Shown piece by piece: positions 8,720 through 33,180 of a stretch of 33,180 bases of DNA. The notes under the pieces are model-generated. The model saw only the letters and a program-made list of their open reading frames with translations, had not been told where the DNA came from and made no database searches. Source of the stretch: a virus; the IMG/VR virus record IMGVR_UViG_3300030060_001372, positions 1-33,180 of that record; one strand, written 5' to 3'. The position numbers and the translations under genes were made by a program. Numbering within the stretch: the stretch's first letter is position 1; each line of letters opens with the position of its first letter.

Positions 8720-9165
8720 AGTTGTCAAATAATTTTTCATTAAATGAAATGGTAAAAAGCCAGACAGCAGAGCGTAAAGGCATACCAAATACACCTGATG
8801 ATGATCAGATAGAGTCTATGAAGTTGTTGTGTGAGAATATATTGCAGCCAATTCGTGATGAGTATGGGCCGTTTATTGTATCGTCAGGTTTCCGCAGTGG
8901 TGAGTTGTGTGTTGCCATAGGTTCAAATATCCACAGCCAGCATGCAAAGGGTGAGGCTGCCGACTTTGAAGTTGCTGGTGTGGATAACTATGGGCTGGCT
9001 GTATGGATACAAGACAACCTCGATTTTGATCAGTTAATATTGGAGTGTTACACTGGTGGTAATAGTGGCTGGATACATTGTAGCTACAAGCCAGAGGGCA
9101 ACAGAAAGCAAACATTAACTTATGATAAGGTAAATAACTATCGTGAAGGGTTGCTTGCCTCATAA
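8716..9165 (+). CDS. M15-family peptidoglycan endopeptidase (endolysin)
   Basis: 149 aa, a typical length for single-domain M15 endolysins (Peptidase_M15_3). The zinc-site pattern is complete: SQHAKGEAADFE gives His76 and Asp83, and WIHCSY gives His121. The N-terminal NNFSLNEMVKSQTAERKG and the ILQPIRDEYGPFIVSSGFRS segment are also family-typical. It cleaves peptide cross-links of peptidoglycan for host lysis, reaching the wall through the holin encoded just upstream (ATGA overlap). Its 3' end overlaps the convergent leftward gene by 28 bp. The coding sequence contains one exact DnaA box (8979-8987). Confidence 0.9.
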   Translation: MKLSNNFSLNEMVKSQTAERKGIPNTPDDDQIESMKLLCENILQPIRDEYGPFIVSSGFRSGELCVAIGSNIHSQHAKGEAADFEVAGVDNYGLAVWIQDNLDFDQLILECYTGGNSGWIHCSYKPEGNRKQTLTYDKVNNYREGLLAS

Positions 9166-9882: not shown

Positions 9883-10293
9883 CTAGAACGGAATATCATC
9901 TTTTACAAACTCACTTGCTGGTATAGATTTCATACCATCAGTTGTTTCACGTGAAACATTATCTACAGCTTGTGGTGTATATTTTTCTGATCGTTTTAAT
10001 GATAGATATTTACTGCCACTTTCTGTTGTTGAACGCCATGCTGCAATGCGATGATTGTCGTTGATCGGGCCAGAATAGTTTGGCTGTTTGTTGTTATCGT
10101 CTGAATCTTTGTTGCCATACATGCAGCCAATGCGTTGATAAATAACAAGTACCTCACGCCCTTGCTGATCTTCATCTTTGACAATAGCTATTTGTTTTTT
10201 GTCATCTTCGATGTGAAGATTGCCAGTAAGTATGAGTGTTTGTTTGTCCATAGGGGGGAATGCTGCCCCCCTATTGGTGTTGTCATAATCCAT
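9883..10293 (-). CDS. DUF736-like protein with SSB-type acidic tail
   Basis: 136 aa from ATG 10293, which overlaps the upstream TAA (TAATG) and has GGAG seven bases before it; the ATG at 10299 is too close to that site. The core, LTGNLHI..., YSGPINDN, HRIAAWRSTTESGSKYLSLK, resembles DUF736 proteins (small beta-rich proteins of phages and plasmids). The last residues, KDDIPF, copy the C-terminal tip of bacterial single-stranded DNA-binding proteins, which docks partner enzymes. It is the gene directly after Erf and YqaJ, so a single-strand DNA-binding or recombination-mediator role is a reasonable inference. Confidence 0.7.
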   Translation of the reverse strand: MDYDNTNRGAAFPPMDKQTLILTGNLHIEDDKKQIAIVKDEDQQGREVLVIYQRIGCMYGNKDSDDNNKQPNYSGPINDNHRIAAWRSTTESGSKYLSLKRSEKYTPQAVDNVSRETTDGMKSIPASEFVKDDIPF

Positions 10294-10760
10294 TACCATG
10301 CTCCTTCGTCATTTGGATCGATGTGTTTTACATTATTTTTTGGTGTTTTGCTTGCATCATTGCCATCATCATCTTCTGATGGTAGGCCAAGTGATGATTG
10401 TAATCCGTACCGTTTGGCATATGTAATGCCGCTACCCATCTTCTGTGGGTCAGATGGATCTTTGGATCTGATGGGTGTGCGTGATTCACGTTGCTCACCA
10501 GATGGTGCGTGTATCAATACGGTACGTACAAATGTCATGCCAGTATCACCGTGAAACTCAAAATCAATTTCTTGTGTAAAGCAAATACCAAACTGTGTAG
10601 CCTGATTGGCTGCACTGATAACAGCTTCGAGTGAAGCATAATTGTTTCTGAAGTGTGGGTTTTTTGAATCTTTACTAGCTGATATTGATAATTTTTGAAA
10701 CTCAAGTAATGCTTGAGCCATTGTTTTTGGTTCAGATTTAGTTTCTTTTTTCGTTGTCAT
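10293..10760 (-). CDS. erf: Erf-family single-strand annealing protein
   Basis: 155 aa. The ERF superfamily pattern is clear: LLEFQKLSISASKDSKNPHF, RNNYASLEAVISAANQATQ, then a central beta region (GMTFVRTVLIHAPSGEQ) and MGSGITYAKRYGLQSSLGL, the conserved 'G..ITYakRY.l..llgi' motif, followed by an acidic EDDDGNDA. Erf proteins anneal complementary single strands and mediate phage recombination or circularisation. It is shorter than P22 Erf (about 200 aa). AAGGAGG precedes ATG 10760. It lies between the exonuclease and the SSB-tailed protein, forming a Red-like recombination set. Confidence 0.88.
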   Translation of the reverse strand: MTTKKETKSEPKTMAQALLEFQKLSISASKDSKNPHFRNNYASLEAVISAANQATQFGICFTQEIDFEFHGDTGMTFVRTVLIHAPSGEQRESRTPIRSKDPSDPQKMGSGITYAKRYGLQSSLGLPSEDDDGNDASKTPKNNVKHIDPNDEGAW

Positions 10761-10761
10761 G

Positions 10762-11550
10762 TTAAGCCTCCTTATTTACAACGATGCGGCATGCGCCACG
10801 TTTATCACGCTTCACTGCCAACAAATCACAGAACACTTCGCGTTCATCATCTTTGATCATTGAGCGTAATTCTTTCTTTGCAGAGTCATTAGCTTTTGCT
10901 GAATCTACACTGCTAAGATATTCATGTGCCATTGCTATGAAGTGATTATCACTGCTGGCATTACGTGCTTTGAGATTGTTGATAGCAACAGATGACCAAT
11001 CAATCTTCCATGTATCAACATCATAGCTTGGCTCTGTGTCTGTTTCGACAAGATGCCAGAACTCTTTTGCTCGTTTGCAAACTGCGTTTAAATATTTGCC
11101 ATCATAATCTACAACACGATAGTCATGTGTATTGCCAAAGATTACAGATAGATACGCTTTGTTAGTCGTAAAAAGATTCATATACAACTGTAACTGCGGC
11201 ATGTATGAATCAAGCATATCATCCATACTTCTATTACTGGATGTATGTTTGCATTCAATTATGTATGGCTCACCTTGCTCGTCTACAGCTTTAGCATCTA
11301 TTTGCCCCTTGAATGGCACACCGCTAAGATAATTAACAACAGACTCAGATGGCAACAACCCCATAAGGCCAGTATCTTTTGCAAGCCAGCTCAAATTAAA
11401 CTCTTCTGTGTAAGTGCCAAGCTGCACTCTGAATATATGGTCAAGATTCTCTGGTTCTTTGCGTCCAGTTTTTACCAGCCATAGATCGTGCCAGTCACCT
11501 TTCATAATTGTATAGAGGTCTGAGCCTCCGATAAAACCTTTTCTGTCCAT
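10762..11550 (-). CDS. YqaJ-type (lambda exonuclease-like) nuclease
   Basis: 262 aa, usual for phage YqaJ-type exonucleases. The start (RKGFIGGSD) matches the family's 'R...iGGSD' motif. Catalytic PDDEXK residues are visible as KGQIDA (Asp85) followed by IIECKH (Glu99, Lys101), and then the Q-x3-Y helix (QLQLYMNLF). It should resect double-stranded ends to give the single strands used by the adjacent Erf protein. ATG 11550 follows AGGAGG. Its 3' end is one base from the Erf start region, so the genes are co-transcribed. Confidence 0.88.
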   Translation of the reverse strand: MDRKGFIGGSDLYTIMKGDWHDLWLVKTGRKEPENLDHIFRVQLGTYTEEFNLSWLAKDTGLMGLLPSESVVNYLSGVPFKGQIDAKAVDEQGEPYIIECKHTSSNRSMDDMLDSYMPQLQLYMNLFTTNKAYLSVIFGNTHDYRVVDYDGKYLNAVCKRAKEFWHLVETDTEPSYDVDTWKIDWSSVAINNLKARNASSDNHFIAMAHEYLSSVDSAKANDSAKKELRSMIKDDEREVFCDLLAVKRDKRGACRIVVNKEA

Positions 11551-11606: not shown

Positions 11607-11924
11607 TTATCGCATACGCATGCTTGCTATTGTTTTGTTTACGATGCCTTGCACATCGATAGGTTGACCCATCTTTTCTTTTCTAGTTACAAAATACTTC
11701 AAGGAAAAAATCGGGTCTTTGTTTTGTGACAGTCGGTAGTCAAGCAGTTTATTTGCATCTTGCTTGAATGATTCGAGCGTGTACCCAAGATCAAGTAGCT
11801 GTTGTGCTAGTGTTTCTTGTCGTAGATCCCATTTGAATGACGAGTGAACTTTACGCCCACGCCATTTGTCATCTACCAGTTTCCTGTAGATATAGCAAAG
11901 CTGTCTTGCATCTTCACTTGTCAC
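11607..11924 (-). CDS. Small helical protein, unknown
   Basis: 105 aa. Charged and helical (DARQLCYIYRKLVDDKWRGR, KWDLRQETLAQQLLDLGYTL), ending VNKTIASMRMR. It overlaps the stop of the winged-helix gene by 4 bp (ATGA), so the two are translationally coupled and likely act together. The content (many Arg/Lys/Trp, no catalytic motif) would suit a DNA-binding or partner protein. I do not recognise a family. Confidence 0.6.
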   Translation of the reverse strand: MTSEDARQLCYIYRKLVDDKWRGRKVHSSFKWDLRQETLAQQLLDLGYTLESFKQDANKLLDYRLSQNKDPIFSLKYFVTRKEKMGQPIDVQGIVNKTIASMRMR

Positions 11925-12238
11925 AAAAGTCTACCTTGTTTTTCAGCTACAACCATAACACGTTGCGGTCTGCCACTTTCACCTTTGCGCTTTTCCCCGG
12001 TGTATTCTATTAGCCCTTTGCGATAGAGGGCAGCGTATCTGGCTGTGACTGTAGAGTAGCGATTGATTTGATGATATGCTGACATATAACCAATCACTTG
12101 ATCTGATATACATCCATTAGGATATTTAGATATTGCATCTAATACTAATGCTTCGAGTCTGTTTGGTTCGATACTTTCAGCAGCTTCGATACTTGTGTCT
12201 GGTGCATCTTTACGATATAGTTGGAATGATTCAGTCAT
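11921..12238 (-). CDS. Winged-helix DNA-binding protein
   Basis: 105 aa. The start, DAPDTSIEAAESI, and the core LEALVLDAISKYPNGCISDQ...STVTARYAALYRKGLIEYTG followed by a basic wing EKRKGESGRPQRV form a clear winged-helix pattern seen in many phage proteins of unknown role. It probably binds DNA, perhaps as a regulator of the leftward genes. A consensus ribosome site (AAAAGGAGG) precedes ATG 12238. A strong terminator lies 32 bp upstream, so this gene may have its own promoter or depend on read-through. Confidence 0.7.
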   Translation of the reverse strand: MTESFQLYRKDAPDTSIEAAESIEPNRLEALVLDAISKYPNGCISDQVIGYMSAYHQINRYSTVTARYAALYRKGLIEYTGEKRKGESGRPQRVMVVAEKQGRLL

Positions 12239-12269: not shown

Positions 12270-12323
12270 AAAAAACTGTGGCATGGATGTTTACCTCCCT
12301 GACATCCATGCCACTATTTTTTT
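12270..12323. terminator. Bidirectional terminator overlapping nuclease stop codon
   Basis: A perfect 13-bp inverted repeat GTGGCATGGATGT / ACATCCATGCCAC (12278-12290 and 12302-12314) with an 11-base loop is flanked by A6 on its left (12270-12275) and T7 on its right (12317-12323). It therefore has the form of an intrinsic terminator on both strands. The TAA of the leftward PDDEXK gene lies in the loop and its last codons form one arm. Confidence 0.8.
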
Positions 12324-12626
12324 CGCCAATGGATTATTTATCTCTATGCAAATAAAACTTGGCCCTTTCTTTTGTTTTAGCAGATAAAGATCTGCTGGTT
12401 GGTTGTTGTGAGTGGAGGTAAGAAAACTAAATCCTCTGCCATTTGCTTGATACTTGGACTCTGCTGTTAATGATCCTTCTTTTGTTTTGATCTTGATGTC
12501 TCCACTAAACTCACCACCCAACTGTCCTGAGAGAGGTTGGCGATTCGCTTCGGCACCGTTTTCTGTGAACCACTTGCACCACCACCTTTCGTGATAGCTT
12601 CCTTTGTTGCGCTGAGATGTTCCCAT
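12291..12626 (-). CDS. PDDEXK nuclease, Holliday junction resolvase-like
   Basis: 111 aa from ATG 12626 (GGAGA eight bases upstream; an in-frame TTG at 12644 is possible). The pattern fits small archaeal-type resolvases and phage PDDEXK nucleases: RNKGSYHERWW (Glu13), GGEFSGDIKI (Asp43), LTAESKYQ (Glu56, Lys58). These would be the metal-binding catalytic residues. Likely job: cleaving branched DNA made during recombination or packaging, alongside Erf and YqaJ. Its 5' third overlaps the zinc-ribbon gene in another frame, and its 3' end is embedded in a terminator hairpin. Confidence 0.75.
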   Translation of the reverse strand: MGTSQRNKGSYHERWWCKWFTENGAEANRQPLSGQLGGEFSGDIKIKTKEGSLTAESKYQANGRGFSFLTSTHNNQPADLYLLKQKKGPSFICIEINNPLAKKIVAWMSGR

Positions 12627-12769
12627 CCGTGCTTCTCCATACAATCAAGACACCACGTATCATTATTACCAGTTATTACATACCATTCTGTAAAGACATT
12701 ACAGTGGTTGCAATTAGAATAATGACCACGTTTATTGTTCTTTGATTTCGAGCGTCGCTTCGAGGGCAT
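12467..12769 (-). CDS. Zinc-ribbon protein overlapping the nuclease gene
   Basis: 100 aa. A very basic start (MPSKRRSKSKNNKRGH) is followed by a four-cysteine ribbon, NCNHC-17 residues-CLDC, then a charged linker. Its last ~53 codons (12467-12626) overlap the PDDEXK gene in a different frame, and its first 38 bases overlap the end of the HTH gene. The ribbon part falls outside the overlap with the nuclease and looks genuine; the rest has low-complexity content that could be a passenger of the nuclease frame. A DNA-binding accessory or, through frameshifting, a domain of the nuclease are both possible. Confidence 0.5.
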   Translation of the reverse strand: MPSKRRSKSKNNKRGHYSNCNHCNVFTEWYVITGNNDTWCLDCMEKHGWEHLSATKEAITKGGGASGSQKTVPKRIANLSQDSWVVSLVETSRSKQKKDH

Positions 12770-12968
12770 TAATCCACATCATTAGATAAAGAACAGATGG
12801 CATTCTTTTATGTTGCTCCCACTTATGAATAAGTGATCTGTCACAGTTAATAATATCTGCAAGTTTATCTTGGGAAATTTTACGTTTCTTTCGTAACGCA
12901 ATAAGAATAGCTACAATCTCATGCCATTTATTTTGCTGATAAATGTTCTGTGTTGCTATTGATTGCAT
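12732..12968 (-). CDS. Cro/CI-type helix-turn-helix regulator
   Basis: 78 aa from ATG 12968, which has AAGGA eight bases upstream; the longer open frame to 13055 would overlap the other regulator heavily. Residues ~24-56, ALRKKRKISQDKLADIINCD followed by RSLIHKWEQHKRMPS, are a textbook HTH_3 (helix, turn, recognition helix RSLIHKWE). It overlaps the preceding HTH gene by 41 bp, so two small DNA-binding proteins come from one transcript. It could control the divergent promoters of the phage. Confidence 0.75.
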   Translation of the reverse strand: MQSIATQNIYQQNKWHEIVAILIALRKKRKISQDKLADIINCDRSLIHKWEQHKRMPSVLYLMMWINALEATLEIKEQ

Positions 12969-13122
12969 CCCATACTTTCCTTGCAGTCGAGTATCGCAGA
13001 TCCCCACCATGTATTGTTCTGTAATACGTACTGGTGGGAACCTTTGCTTTTTCAAATGCTTTTAAGATAGATACATTATTATCTTGGGCAGCACTAATCA
13101 GTTGTTGCATATATGTTTTCAT
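12928..13122 (-). CDS. Small helix-turn-helix protein, probably leaderless
   Basis: 64 aa. Helical; ISAAQDNNVSILKAFEKAKV then PTSTYYRTIHGGDLRYSTAR resembles a Cro/repressor HTH with recognition helix around STYYRTIHG. No Shine-Dalgarno sequence precedes ATG 13122; instead a promoter -10 element ends exactly six bases upstream (13129-13134), so transcription should begin at or next to the A of the ATG. It is the first gene of a pair of overlapping HTH genes. A repressor-type role is inferred. Confidence 0.6.
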   Translation of the reverse strand: MKTYMQQLISAAQDNNVSILKAFEKAKVPTSTYYRTIHGGDLRYSTARKVWDAINSNTEHLSAK

Positions 13123-13164: not shown

Positions 13165-13476
13165 TTATAGCTGGCATGCTGTTAAAACGTTTTGTATTTG
13201 TGGTTTGTATAATTGATAGTCACCTGATGCCATTTTATTAAAACCATACATAGCTGATGTATGATCTTTATCTATCGTAGATGCAATGCATGGAAGACTG
13301 GCTTTGGTTTTTACTCTGCATAGCCAGAAATATACATGCCTAGCAATGGAGACTTGTCTTGTTCGTCGCCTACTGCATAGATCTATAAAAGATATATCAA
13401 ACTGGTCAGCTACAGATTGTGCTATCAAATGGCACAATGCTGTATCAGCCATATGATTTAAGGTTATTCTGTTCAT
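13165..13476 (-). CDS. Stand-alone DnaA domain IV (DnaA-box binding) protein
   Basis: 103 aa. Residues ~20-85 match the C-terminal DNA-binding domain of bacterial DnaA (Bac_DnaA_C): SVADQFDISFIDLCSRRRTR, QVSIARHVYFWLCR, LPCIASTIDKDHTSAMYGFN. The signature DHTS loop (Asp71-His72-Thr73-Ser74), which reads the DnaA box, and the basic SRRR turn are intact. The AAA+ ATPase and domains I-II of DnaA are absent, so it can bind DnaA boxes but not form the ATP filament. It could mark a phage origin, recruit host factors, or block host initiation. GGAGG precedes ATG 13476; the gene overlaps its upstream neighbour by 32 bp. Confidence 0.85.
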   Translation of the reverse strand: MNRITLNHMADTALCHLIAQSVADQFDISFIDLCSRRRTRQVSIARHVYFWLCRVKTKASLPCIASTIDKDHTSAMYGFNKMASGDYQLYKPQIQNVLTACQL

Positions 13477-14136: not shown

Positions 14137-14266
14137 AAGAGTTGCCTCCTTTGATTTGAACTGGATCGGTGGGCATGCATACGCAGTGTGTCCACTCTAC
14201 GCATCCATACCCATCGGGTACTCTGACCCATCCGTTGTCTTTATCGTGACAATATTTACAGATCAT
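14066..14266 (-). CDS. Small Cys/His zinc-finger-like protein
   Basis: 66 aa from ATG 14266, which overlaps the DUF932 stop (ATGA). MICKYCHDKDNGWVRVPDGY then GCVEWTHCVC contains C-x2-C-H and C-x5-HC-x-C groups that could bind zinc, followed by a basic tail (SDRKRRTNARRLRIKI). The last 71 bases overlap the next gene, so the tail may be partly incidental. Role unknown. Confidence 0.5.
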   Translation of the reverse strand: MICKYCHDKDNGWVRVPDGYGCVEWTHCVCMPTDPVQIKGGNSYVRISDRKRRTNARRLRIKIQHS

Positions 14267-15135
14267 ACTGTTTGCCAATCCCATTTGTTGATTGCTTTAG
14301 CTACAACAGCTTCGCGTAAGCGTTGCGTGTTGGCTGGTGATTTTGAATCTTCAGTGTGTGATGACCAGTAGGTAAGCGCATTGTACAATGCCCATTTTGT
14401 TTTACCCAACACTGCACTGTCTTTGAACCAACAGTCCATCAGGTTATCAAGCTGTCTTTCATTCCATTTGAATGTGCTTGTCTTGTTATTTATCTTGCAC
14501 ACTTTTCTTTTGAAGAACTCTTCTGCCATGTCATCAGGCACTTTGATATTTTGCCATGCCCAATACTGTTCTTTGGAAAGAAGGAACTGGTCAAGCGCAG
14601 CTTGTAGTTTAGATGCACTGGCTTTGACATCGATGTTGGCTGTATGTTTTTGCCATGTCTTTGCCACTGCATGCTGGCTTACCATGCCATTCAAGCAGAT
14701 CAAACGCAGTCCTTCTGCTGATTGCTGGAATGCCCACGATCCATCGTATGAGTTGAAGAATGTAAGCTGGAATGTAACAATGTCACCTACTGAAGGTTCG
14801 ATAGTCAGATCATTGAATCTGATTACACCTTTTAGTTTGGCTCCGTTGTCGTATGTTTTGACTGTATGATTGTAATCATTCGATATACCTGCTGCATCTA
14901 CAGCATCAAATACTGAGTTGACTACATCATCATGCTTGACTGCTTTGTATTTAGAACCGTGAACACCAAGCACTTGGTTGGTGTCGGTGCGTACAATACA
15001 ACGTGCCATAGATGGTGGTACATCGATTGATTCAAAGTTGGTGACCGTATGCATATCGCATGTGTCGATTGGGAATGACCACTCATTATCTGATGATACA
15101 AATGATTGAAGTGGTTGTGTTGATAGATCGTTCAT
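14263..15135 (-). CDS. DUF932 phage/plasmid-like protein
   Basis: 290 aa, normal for DUF932. Diagnostic segments are VLGVHGSKYKAVKHDDVV (the 'vlg.v...Y....n.e' motif), GDIVTFQLTFFNSYDGSWAF and LRLICLNGMVSQ ('r..C.NG...'), and a C-terminal region about stopping conditions of unknown role (LDNLMDCWF). DUF932 proteins are common in phages and plasmids next to recombination genes, but their activity is not established. AAGGAGG precedes ATG 15135 and a promoter lies 25 bp upstream. It is the first sizeable gene after the structured island in the leftward direction. Confidence 0.85.
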   Translation of the reverse strand: MNDLSTQPLQSFVSSDNEWSFPIDTCDMHTVTNFESIDVPPSMARCIVRTDTNQVLGVHGSKYKAVKHDDVVNSVFDAVDAAGISNDYNHTVKTYDNGAKLKGVIRFNDLTIEPSVGDIVTFQLTFFNSYDGSWAFQQSAEGLRLICLNGMVSQHAVAKTWQKHTANIDVKASASKLQAALDQFLLSKEQYWAWQNIKVPDDMAEEFFKRKVCKINNKTSTFKWNERQLDNLMDCWFKDSAVLGKTKWALYNALTYWSSHTEDSKSPANTQRLREAVVAKAINKWDWQTV

Positions 15136-15324: not shown

Positions 15325-15528
15325 TGTTTTGCCTCCATAAAAATGATTTGAAACCGTCCAGCGCAAAGCTGGCGATTGTCACTTTACCTAACTGGCCCGG
15401 GTAGACGGCGAGGTTTTTGGTAGCCAAGCGGATGCATTGCATGCATTTCTTGGCTACCAAGGGAGAAACCTATCCAGTTGAAAGGGGGTTATGATCCCCT
15501 GCCCATCCGGGCAGGGGATACGCCTCCG
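15325..15528. other. Gene-free structured stretch beside the 150-aa gene
   Basis: I see no coding frame here. It contains CCAGC-GCAAA-GCTGG (15359-15373), the nested repeat at 15390-15479 and most of the tandem hairpins at 15494-15541, and is more GC-rich than its surroundings. Confidence 0.6.
15390..15479. repeat. Nested inverted repeat with perfect 12-bp core
   Basis: TTGGTAGCCAAG (15417-15428) pairs perfectly with CTTGGCTACCAA (15449-15460). Outside it GGTTT (15412-15416) pairs with AAACC (15466-15470) and AACTGG (15390-15395) with CCAGTT (15474-15479). The 20-base loop contains ATGCAT twice, three bases apart. The order of matched pairs is collinear, as in a folded RNA or cruciform. No T run follows on either strand except TTTTT inside the left arm. 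Confidence 0.8.
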
Positions 15529-15565
15529 TTAGGAGGCGTATTTCTTGCGTAGCTCTTCGCTACGC
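15494..15565 (-). terminator. Three abutting hairpins around a stop codon
   Basis: ATCCCCTGCCC-ATCC-GGGCAGGGGAT (11-bp stem, 15494-15519) abuts ATACGCCTCC-GTTA-GGAGGCGTAT (10-bp stem, 15518-15541), whose loop holds the leftward gene's TAA; then GCGTAGC-TCTTC-GCTACGC (15547-15565) lies within the coding end. These would strongly stall or protect the leftward transcript. There is no clean T run, so a processing, stability or Rho-independent role is uncertain. Confidence 0.6.
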
Positions 15566-15981
15566 TTCGCTGGGACAGCGCCTTTCGGCTTGTCCTTCGC
15601 GAGGAATGTATCACCAGTGCAGGTCTTGTAAGCTGCTTTCATCTGTGTAACAAAGTTTTGAAGCATCTCAATCTCAAGATCCATGTTCGTGATACGCTCA
15701 TCGATTCTATCGAGTGCGATATCATCGTAGTGTAGCGCACCACGAACGGCACCGTATTTGCGACAAACGTAGAGAGTGTTTTCTCCGTTAGTTTCGTCGG
15801 CACCCGCAATGGTCGTCGCATCCTCGTGAAGATCCACCTTATCGCTCTCCTTTTGGCCGATGAGCCACTCGGATTGCTCGACGCACTTGCGAATGATATT
15901 CTTTGTGAGATAGATAGATCCTTTGTGGGAATCTGGAAAGATGGCGCTAAAGCCTTGAGAGAAGTGATTTGTGTTGCTCAT
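15529..15981 (-). CDS. 150-aa protein of the structured island, unknown
   Basis: 150 aa, ATG 15981 preceded by AGGAGG. The sequence has a mixed N-terminal half (FSAIFPDSHKGSIYLTKNII, DLHEDATTIAGADETNGENT), then VCRKYGAVRGALHYDDI, a long probable coiled coil (DERITNMDLEIEMLQNFVTQ) and a basic Lys/Arg/Ala tail. It is more GC-rich than other genes (35 of 60 in the block at 15541, against 22-24 of 60 in sampled structural genes), suggesting a different origin or selection. Hairpins flank it on both sides. Being the first leftward gene it is probably expressed early. I do not recognise a family. Confidence 0.7.
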   Translation of the reverse strand: MSNTNHFSQGFSAIFPDSHKGSIYLTKNIIRKCVEQSEWLIGQKESDKVDLHEDATTIAGADETNGENTLYVCRKYGAVRGALHYDDIALDRIDERITNMDLEIEMLQNFVTQMKAAYKTCTGDTFLAKDKPKGAVPAKRSEELRKKYAS

Positions 15982-16059
15982 AGTAACCTCCTGTTGAGCT
16001 AATGTGCAGGGAAAACCCCCTGCGGTAAGATAGGCAAAGGCTGTGCCGAGGACTGTCGC

Positions 16060-16111
16060 TCAACCCCCAACCCGGTCGGGCAAAGCCCGAGTGGTGCGGG
16101 CGGGGGGTTGA
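16060..16111. repeat. Three-level nested hairpin
   Basis: TCAACCCCC (16060-16068) pairs with GGGGGTTGA (16103-16111); inside, CCCG (16071-16074) with CGGG (16097-16100); innermost TCGGGC-AAA-GCCCGA (16076-16090). Confidence 0.75.
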
Positions 16112-16129
16112 ACAGCGCATAATATAAGC

Positions 16130-16168
16130 GGCGTGAGTTTGCCTCGCATTACAGCGAGGCGACACGCC
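16130..16168. repeat. Two-level nested hairpin
   Basis: GGCGTG (16130-16135) pairs with CACGCC (16163-16168) and encloses GCCTCGC-ATTACA-GCGAGGC (16141-16160, 7-bp perfect stem). Confidence 0.75.
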
Positions 16169-16264
16169 ACAATAACGCGCTGGTGCGACAGGCAGCGGTG
16201 CAGCATGCAGACTATCCGCAGGGGGGAGGCCCAAGCATTCGATCAGCAGGGAAGGTGGATATGA

Positions 16265-16365
16265 CAACGCAAAGCACGGAGCGAAAGGGTTTAGTGACAG
16301 CTTTTCGGATTGTCGCAAACCTGTGAGTGCTTGTGAGAATATCTTTCGCTCCTCTTTGTGCGTTG
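16265..16365. repeat. Long stem structure ending at the late promoter
   Basis: GGAGCGAAAG (16278-16287) pairs perfectly with CTTTCGCTCC (16343-16352). Outside it AAAG pairs with CTTT and CAACGC (16265-16270) with GCGTTG (16360-16365). Inside, GGTTT (16288-16292) pairs with AAACC (16317-16321) and GACA with TGTC. The outer arm overlaps the TTGACA element. Confidence 0.7.
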
Positions 16366-16392
16366 ACAAGCCGTGACTCAGAGTGCTAAAAG
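16363..16392 (+). promoter_or_regulatory. Main rightward (late) promoter
   Basis: Consensus -35 TTGACA (16363-16368), 18-base spacer, TAAAAG (16387-16392) with an extended TGC just before it. It faces the small terminase gene and is the best sigma70-type promoter seen in the window. Confidence 0.65.
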
Positions 16393-16411
16393 GGGGGGGA
16401 TATGGGGGGGG
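16392..16411 (+). other. Twin G8 tracts (G8-ATAT-G8)
   Basis: Eight G at 16392-16399, ATAT, eight G at 16404-16411, just downstream of the promoter and before the terS ribosome site. Striking in a genome of about 40% GC. Confidence 0.85.
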
Positions 16412-16433
16412 TTCACATTAGAGGATGTCATTG

Positions 16434-31624: not shown

Positions 31625-33180
31625 ATGGTTGATATAAACAGACAAGATTTTTTTATTCCAATACCAGCAGCTATATCTGATGACACTCCTCCATCATGGT
31701 ATGAAGGTTGGAAAGCAAATGTTGCGTATAACAACATGCCATTGGTTGAATCAATACAGGAACAAATAGAGTTTGCAAATGAAGGTTATGATTATAATTT
31801 TAATGTAGCAGAGAACATTTCTGAAGATGTGCTGCCATATTATGATGATTTAGTAAAAGCTAAAAATGAACGTCATCTTAGATACTTAGAAGCAAGAGCA
31901 AGGGAAGCAATAGAACGTAGGCGTATAGCGTCTAATGCTCCCTTAACAGCACAACTTGCAGGTGGTTTTACCGATCCATTAGCTGTAACAGCATTTATTC
32001 CCGGCCTTAACTTTGTAAAATTAGGTAAAACATTTACACAAGCAGTAGGTCGTGGTGCTATTGCAGGTCTTGGTTATGGTGTTGCATCTGAGGCTAGGCG
32101 TGCGCCGTTTGCTGTAGCTGATGAACCGGGCGAAGCAGTTGCCAATGTTGCAGCATCTACAATATTCTCAGCAGGTTTTGGTGGTGTATTAAAAGGTGCT
32201 GGATATGCTGGGCCGTTTCTTTCTAGCTCTGCAAGCAAGGTAAATAAGCTATATCAGGGTAAAAGTTTTAAGCATGTGTTTGGTAAAACTGATGAAGTTG
32301 CTAATCTAGATGAAGCATATACACCTGCTGAAGGTGGTAATTTAGATTTAGTTCAAACAAATATTTTAGGTTCTTCTACAAATAGAGTAATGGGTAATAA
32401 AAAATATTCTGAAAAAATAAAAAACTACTTTGCATTGCTTGCTTACAATGGATCTGTGTCTACACAAGGTGCTAGACGAGGATATGGTTTTCAATCTGTT
32501 TCTCAAGAGTCAGTTACATATCAAGGTTTATTTGAAGGCTTACAGCGTAAGATGCTTGACTTGCATTCTTTGGAAGTAAGAGGAATTAAAAAAGCATCTA
32601 GGGTAGCAACTGTTCCTTTGCCTTTTACAGGTTTTGATGATTGGGCTAGCGATACAATAAGACGTTATATCTTACGTAGTTCACCTGATCCACGATTACA
32701 AAAAATTGGTAATGATGGCATTAGCGACCAGCAAAAAGAAGCTGGTGTTTTGATGAGTGAATTATTTAAAGGTTTTCGTGATGATATTCATTATTATCAA
32801 ATGAGAACAGATGACAAACTTTTAGCATACATTACAAAACTTCAAAATGAAGTTGATACAGTAACTAATAAATTAGTAAAATTAGAAGCTGACATAAATA
32901 AAATGCCTAATAAAGCTGGTACTAAAAAACAAATAGATTTTTTAAAAACTTTAGAAGATCGACAAGCTGAGTTAAGAGCAAGAATTACTGACTATGAAGG
33001 TAAATTAGGTAAATTTACTAGAGAAGATTACACCTTTCCTATTTTTTATAACAAAGAATTATTGTCTACAAGTGATGAAGCAAGACAAACTTTAACAAGG
33101 ATATTTAGTGAAGATTATGAAGCACAACGATTAGCTGCTGGCAAAGATACATTTGGTACATTTGAAGATGCTGAAAAAAC
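31625..33180 (+). CDS. Internal virion protein, gp16-like, N-terminal part (3' end cut by window)
   Basis: Open from ATG 31625 to the window end (518 codons), then continuing at base 1. The first residues, MVDINRQDFFIPIPAAISDD, lack the transglycosylase domain of T7 gp16. A hydrophobic Gly/Ala segment (residues ~115-200, e.g. FTDPLAVTAFIPGLNFVKLG, GAIAGLGYGVASEA, AASTIFSAGFGGVLKGAGYA) could insert in membranes. The last 136 complete codons are the right copy of the end overlap. Ejected protein role is inferred from order and total size (about 1,075 aa). Confidence 0.8.
   Translation, partial: MVDINRQDFFIPIPAAISDDTPPSWYEGWKANVAYNNMPLVESIQEQIEFANEGYDYNFNVAENISEDVLPYYDDLVKAKNERHLRYLEARAREAIERRRIASNAPLTAQLAGGFTDPLAVTAFIPGLNFVKLGKTFTQAVGRGAIAGLGYGVASEARRAPFAVADEPGEAVANVAASTIFSAGFGGVLKGAGYAGPFLSSSASKVNKLYQGKSFKHVFGKTDEVANLDEAYTPAEGGNLDLVQTNILGSSTNRVMGNKKYSEKIKNYFALLAYNGSVSTQGARRGYGFQSVSQESVTYQGLFEGLQRKMLDLHSLEVRGIKKASRVATVPLPFTGFDDWASDTIRRYILRSSPDPRLQKIGNDGISDQQKEAGVLMSELFKGFRDDIHYYQMRTDDKLLAYITKLQNEVDTVTNKLVKLEADINKMPNKAGTKKQIDFLKTLEDRQAELRARITDYEGKLGKFTREDYTFPIFYNKELLSTSDEARQTLTRIFSEDYEAQRLAAGKDTFGTFEDAEK
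32771..33180. repeat. Right copy of a divergent end overlap
   Basis: Homologous to bases 1-410 without gaps. Most of the 32 mismatches are transitions, many at third codon positions. This copy reads into the gene from its true start, whereas the left copy reads on to its stop. Confidence 0.95.

Follow-up and report, generated by a model that had tools for sequence, protein, structure and literature searches.

A stand-alone DnaA domain IV protein in a phage early module and slot exchange with O-like initiators in related contigs

Escherichia coli DnaA uses residue R399 to read TTA in the minor groove and the helix 434-451 to read TnCACA in the major groove; the R399A and T435M proteins are defective and have lost box binding (PMC5742627). 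Stand-alone proteins with the DnaA helix-turn-helix (HTH) are already annotated in pelagiphages and other phages: their genes are scattered in marine and other phages, and the replication-initiation label is attached by name only. Proteins of this kind are Pelagibacter phage HTVC100P gp21 (annotated as 'DNA replication initiation (DnaA)'), Greip gp42 ('Bac_DnaA_C domain-containing protein'), the protein of MW202483 ('dnaa protein helix-turn-helix') and those of Rhizobium phage RHph_N28_2, ctOK67, Microcystis phage Mae-JY35 and Olleya phage Harreka_1. A protein called DnaA is also listed for all HTVC010P-related phages (PMC6811365). Our search of the open-access literature found no experimental work on a phage stand-alone domain IV and no description of a slot exchange between such genes and O-like initiators. 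The protein described here, named DnaA4, adds one member to the group, and the new part is its gene context, the slot exchange. Several further top phage matches, in records labelled 'Bacteriophage sp.' (MT836079.1 and MT835859.1), were rejected; these records hold near full-length bacterial DnaA and look like mis-binned bacterial DNA.

The analysed stretch, called the window, is a whole contig of a marine phage, 33,180 bases long. Its ends (1-410 and 32771-33180) are repeats of about 410 bases that are 92% identical. The genome is therefore probably circular or terminally redundant, with a length of about 32.8 kb once the contig is closed, and the record ends are probably two variants joined. 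Among named relatives, Pelagibacter phage EXVC031P Hodr has the nearest terminase (69%); a search of Hodr for Bac_DnaA_C gave no match. The TerL scan for a host returned mixed MAG bins only, and the profile search of genome contigs with the phage alignment found no bacterial relatives.

DnaA4 is encoded on the minus strand at 13165-13476 by an ORF of 103 amino acids with an ATG start. Its residues 17-81 match Pfam PF08299 (Bac_DnaA_C) with 62 bits (E=5.4e-17, profile positions 3-68/69), above the curated gathering cut-off of 31.5 bits. The match was recovered again in the search over the whole record, which places the HTH domain proper at 13234-13428 on the minus strand. The phmmer search against the PDB gave the M. 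tuberculosis DnaA-DBD (3pvp, E=1e-7) and E. coli domain IV (1j1v, E=3e-5). The structural prediction, which the earlier note had proposed as a check, gave a DnaA-type HTH fold: the AlphaFold2 model has six helices with a pLDDT of 93.1 and a pTM of 0.86, its Foldseek matches at ranks 1-9 are all DnaA and the first non-DnaA match has an E of 1.1. The M. tuberculosis DnaA-DBD/DNA complex 3pvp superposes on the model with an rmsd of 1.7 A over 90 columns (Foldseek probability 1.00). The DHTS loop reported earlier is found as D71 H72 T73 S74, equivalent to E. coli D433 H434 T435 T436, and the box-contact residues R399, H434 and T435 correspond to R38, H72 and T73. No further domain was found in the first 16 and the last ~20 residues, and both the AAA+ ATPase domain III and the DnaB-binding domain I, sought in the 103-aa ORF, are absent. 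Pfam, AlphaFold2 and Foldseek thus bear out the earlier claim of a phage-encoded box-reading domain of DnaA lacking the ATPase, and, by sequence and predicted structure, the ORF is DnaA domain IV alone.

Compared with E. coli (1J1V) and M. tuberculosis (3PVP) domain IV, DnaA4 shares the fold (rmsd 1.7-2.0 A), the HTH and the equivalents of R399, R407, D433, H434 and T435, whereas it lacks domains I-III and with them the ATPase, oligomerisation and the DnaB-binding domain I. It also differs from E. coli DnaA by S in place of T436 and H in place of Q408. The phage proteins listed above likewise have a stand-alone Bac_DnaA_C domain encoded in the phage early region; they are only ~30-40% identical to DnaA4 and have other neighbours. 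Unlike DnaA4, most of them carry 60-110 extra N-terminal residues, except that the MW202483 protein (~98 aa) has no N-terminal extra and the Harreka_1 protein has a C-terminal extension instead.

Purifying selection acts on the DnaA4 gene, with a dN/dS of 0.21-0.28 between the window and four related contigs (L001, L002, L004 and L016). Over all pairs the values are 0.14-0.36, and these, together with the E-value, exclude a chance match. Fifteen phage homologues were gathered, most of them 19-33% identical to DnaA4. In E. coli numbering, D433 and H434 are conserved in 15/15, R398, R407 and T435 in 14/15 and R399 in 13/15, while all 15 proteins have T or S at position 436; the equivalents of R399, H434 and T435 are thus 87-100% conserved. 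The best-conserved residues of the phage homologues coincide with the E. coli contacts to the DnaA box (R398/R399, R407, D433, H434, T435). Read with the E. coli mutant data, the conserved contacts indicate that box-type DNA reading is probably kept. The presence of the gene among relatives is patchy (8 of the 50 TerL contigs above the cut-off, many of these contigs being fragments), as expected of a captured DnaA fragment serving as a box decoy or left as a remnant without specific function. However, such a reading is very improbable, as it is disfavoured by the purifying selection and by contact residues that stay invariant at 19-33% identity.

DnaA4 lies in an early minus-strand module which contains, besides small ORFs, genes for a DUF932 protein (14263-15135, upstream in the same early transcript, Pfam 3e-21), HTHb, HTHa, a Cys-rich protein, a resolvase-like protein, wH1, repX, YqaJ, ERF and a probable SSB, all on the minus strand. 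Gene comparison showed that HTHb (12928-13122), a small protein directly downstream of DnaA4, is a conserved neighbour in most of the group; it has no Pfam match, which makes the HTH part of its name provisional. HTHa (12732-13055) is an HTH_3 DNA-binding protein of the Cro/CI type (Pfam 1.7e-7). It is followed by ZnR (12467-12769), a small Cys-rich protein without a Pfam match that gene comparison marks as a conserved neighbour, and by the Holliday-junction resolvase-like protein (12291-12644, PHROG 244 with 5.6e-8 and PHROG 23036 with 2.5e-4). wH1 (11921-12238), a probable winged helix protein, matches PHROG 1123 (3.5e-7), a family of unknown function, and weakly, below the threshold, Pfam Penicillinase_R (E=0.15). 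In the hhalign comparison, repX (11607-11924) aligns with the C-terminal half of the O-like initiator from contig L016 (98%, E=2e-14; the L016 O protein sits in both alignments), and the HTH_36 half, which is found in L016, is absent from the window repX. The module continues with a YqaJ/RecE-like exonuclease (10762-11550, Pfam YqaJ 1.4e-4, PHROG 434 7e-30), an ERF single-strand annealing protein (10293-10760, Pfam 7e-25) and the probable SSB (9883-10299, PHROG 18154 E=0.004), which has an acidic DDIPF tail. The earlier observation that no polymerase, primase or helicase gene is visible holds among the window genes scanned, a set that takes in part of the short and overlapping ORFs: no match to these families was found there. 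That no replisome genes are recognisable agrees with a phage dependent on its host.

To compare the gene context, the module genes were mapped across the relative contigs, with the slot defined as the interval from the resolvase to the YqaJ exonuclease; wH1 is the first gene of this slot in the window. Five contigs (G015, G035, L079, L094, L133) have an O-like HTH_36 initiator and a gene called P1 in the slot and no DnaA4; the O-like genes carry the HTH_36 domain, and PHROGs labels them replication initiation proteins. In G019, G020, G036 and G026 the slot holds DnaA4 followed by a gene called P2, which it overlaps, and no O-like gene. These represent about three independent lineages, since G019 and G020 are near-identical in type. 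A third arrangement, with the O-like gene present and DnaA4 further upstream, was found in L017-L019, G023, L004 and L016; the coexistence of the two genes there means that simple replacement does not describe the relation. In the window, L001, L002 and G041 (a contig that ends before YqaJ), wH1 and repX occupy the slot, DnaA4 lies upstream and no HTH_36 domain is present. G028 has DnaA4 upstream and P1 only, and the contig of its near-copy G040 ends before the DnaA4 position. DnaA4 is missing from several relatives, and L054 and some others have neither DnaA4 nor an O-like gene. The initiator slot beside the loader candidate is thus occupied by DnaA4 only in G019, G020, G036 and G026, while the window copy sits upstream of the HTHb-HTHa-ZnR-resolvase series.

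The family search with P2 gave no match, and hhalign found P1 and P2 to be unrelated. VIA-align places the lambda helicase loader P (9oa1, Z 8.2 over 87 residues) first among the matches of the P2 model. This likeness is only suggestive because the corresponding Foldseek E of 2.3 is not significant and helical models commonly reach a Z near 8. Compared with lambda O-P, in which an O-like HTH_36 protein is paired with the loader P, the DnaA domain IV gene of these relatives takes the O-like position and overlaps the gene with the P-like match; it differs in that the DNA-binding fold is unrelated and no iterons were found.

The favoured reading, to which we assign a probability of about 0.5, is that DnaA4 works in phage replication initiation, since the DnaA-type genes in relatives occupy the usual position of the phage replication starter. 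The detached domain IV would still read DnaA-box-like DNA and would bind one or a few sites on the phage DNA, where it may help to place the host DnaB helicase through contact with a loader or with DnaB. Partners from the early operon, in relatives the O-like initiator or the possible lambda-P-like loader, would assist it, and the host replisome would then copy the phage DNA. For the window, this supposes that the role has been carried over from the slot-replacing relatives to a copy outside the slot. The strongest point for initiation is the presence of DnaA4 in the O position in four contigs; the weakest is that the window copy lies elsewhere and that no target site for it was found in the phage. 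Moreover, the window keeps DnaA4 in its recombination/replication module while the O-like HTH_36 domain is missing. The slot comparison is a concrete reason to think that at least some stand-alone domain IV genes are initiators and, if so, DnaA domain IV could recognise an origin in the absence of the DnaA ATPase, given a phage loader. A further, doubtful proposal is that a marine lineage swapped the lambda-O-type initiator for bare DnaA domain IV and a phage helicase loader, with no AAA+ initiator ATPase; the minimal initiator would then combine a reading head of host origin with a loader from the virus.

Similar neighbourhoods occur in unrelated phages: the DnaA-HTH gene adjoins a DUF1376/primosomal gene in RHph_N28_2 and lies within two genes of one in L208, and in ctOK67 it immediately precedes a replication initiation gene. 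Adjacency alone is a weak argument because the early modules of phages bring replication genes and regulatory genes close to each other. DnaA also acts as a transcription factor, and DnaA4 adjoins the HTH_3 protein in the early operon, as would suit a regulator that resembles a Cro-type repressor and controls this operon or host genes that have DnaA boxes. Stand-alone DnaA domain IV genes were found in about 9 of 115 alphaproteobacterial genomes. These copies share Bac_DnaA_C alone with DnaA4 and differ in being chromosomal, in having GRDRTT for DHTT in several cases and in lying near SufE and XRE genes rather than replication genes. Their pairing with DUF6456 in several genomes and the nearby regulators suggest regulatory use there; the bare domain is used outside phages too, perhaps as a regulator. 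For DnaA4 this function is unlikely: aligning the intergenic regions to those of L001-L003 revealed no conserved box-like site, and the slot swap with O-like initiators would be left unexplained. The order DnaA domain IV then DUF6456 is seen in L201 (4948-6185), L202, L203, L205 and L206, with a SufE-like gene adjoining and an XRE regulator in some; DUF6456 was assigned by Pfam in L201 and by sequence likeness in the other four.

DnaA boxes were scanned as exact, relaxed and 1-mismatch motifs in 17 genomes or contigs, some carrying the gene and others lacking it, against 400 permuted control motifs of the same composition. The exact motif TTATNCACA occurs once in the 33 kb; this sole exact box, TTATCCACA, lies at 8979-8987 on the minus strand inside the endolysin (M15) gene. 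It is kept in L001, L002 and L004 along with the endolysin protein sequence, which is not evidence of a site because of the codon context and a gene dS of only 0.15-0.31. The number of near-boxes in the window is ordinary (40th percentile of the permuted motifs); near-boxes had seemed depleted relative to dinucleotide shuffles (39 vs 59), but no such depletion was left relative to the permuted motifs. Across the 17 genomes or contigs there was no enrichment, no clear depletion and no difference by gene presence, and neither box clusters nor iterons (repeated 9-mers) were found in the window and relatives. The box count and positions, which the earlier note had put forward as a further check, therefore reveal no visible array that would draw host DnaA or DnaA4 to the phage; a single or non-canonical DnaA4 site is possible. 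The earlier suggestion that the protein may bring the host initiation machinery to phage DNA thus gains indirect support from the gene context in relatives and none from the DnaA boxes.

A phage without its own box array would suit a protein aimed at host sites. Free domain IV might compete, as a dominant-negative factor, for the DnaA boxes of the host oriC and stop host re-initiation, sparing nucleotides and replisomes for the phage. The conserved DNA-contact residues and the missing ATPase, which is required for initiation, agree with such an anti-host role, and phage interference with DnaA has a precedent in the E. coli prophage protein YfdR, which acts by binding the DnaA protein (PMC4776307). 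The titration or blocking of host boxes put forward in the earlier note would likewise be compatible with the conserved contacts. If host oriC were blocked in this way, phages would have an easy means of shutting down host replication in bacteria that are abundant in the ocean. We consider this quite unlikely, as it does not predict the placement in the replication module or the O-slot position in relatives.

Two non-coding stretches were noted in the early minus-strand transcript of the window, at 15980-16424 and 15335-15530. Both are near-identical in L001-L003 (over ~240 and ~180 bases, respectively), beyond the synonymous sites of adjacent genes, and their predicted RNA folding is strong (z -7.4 and -4.4, respectively). 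In the element at 16 kb, 14 predicted pairs differ on both sides among three sequences. The Rfam search, which included both stretches, gave no match; they could be structured RNA, an origin or both. Separately, positions 16700-17500 of L015 (MW202483.1), a phage with its own polymerase, contain intergenic direct repeats, five copies of GTTTATGTA and five of CACTACCAA, a few kb from its DnaA-HTH gene, and this repeat region is possibly an iteron origin.
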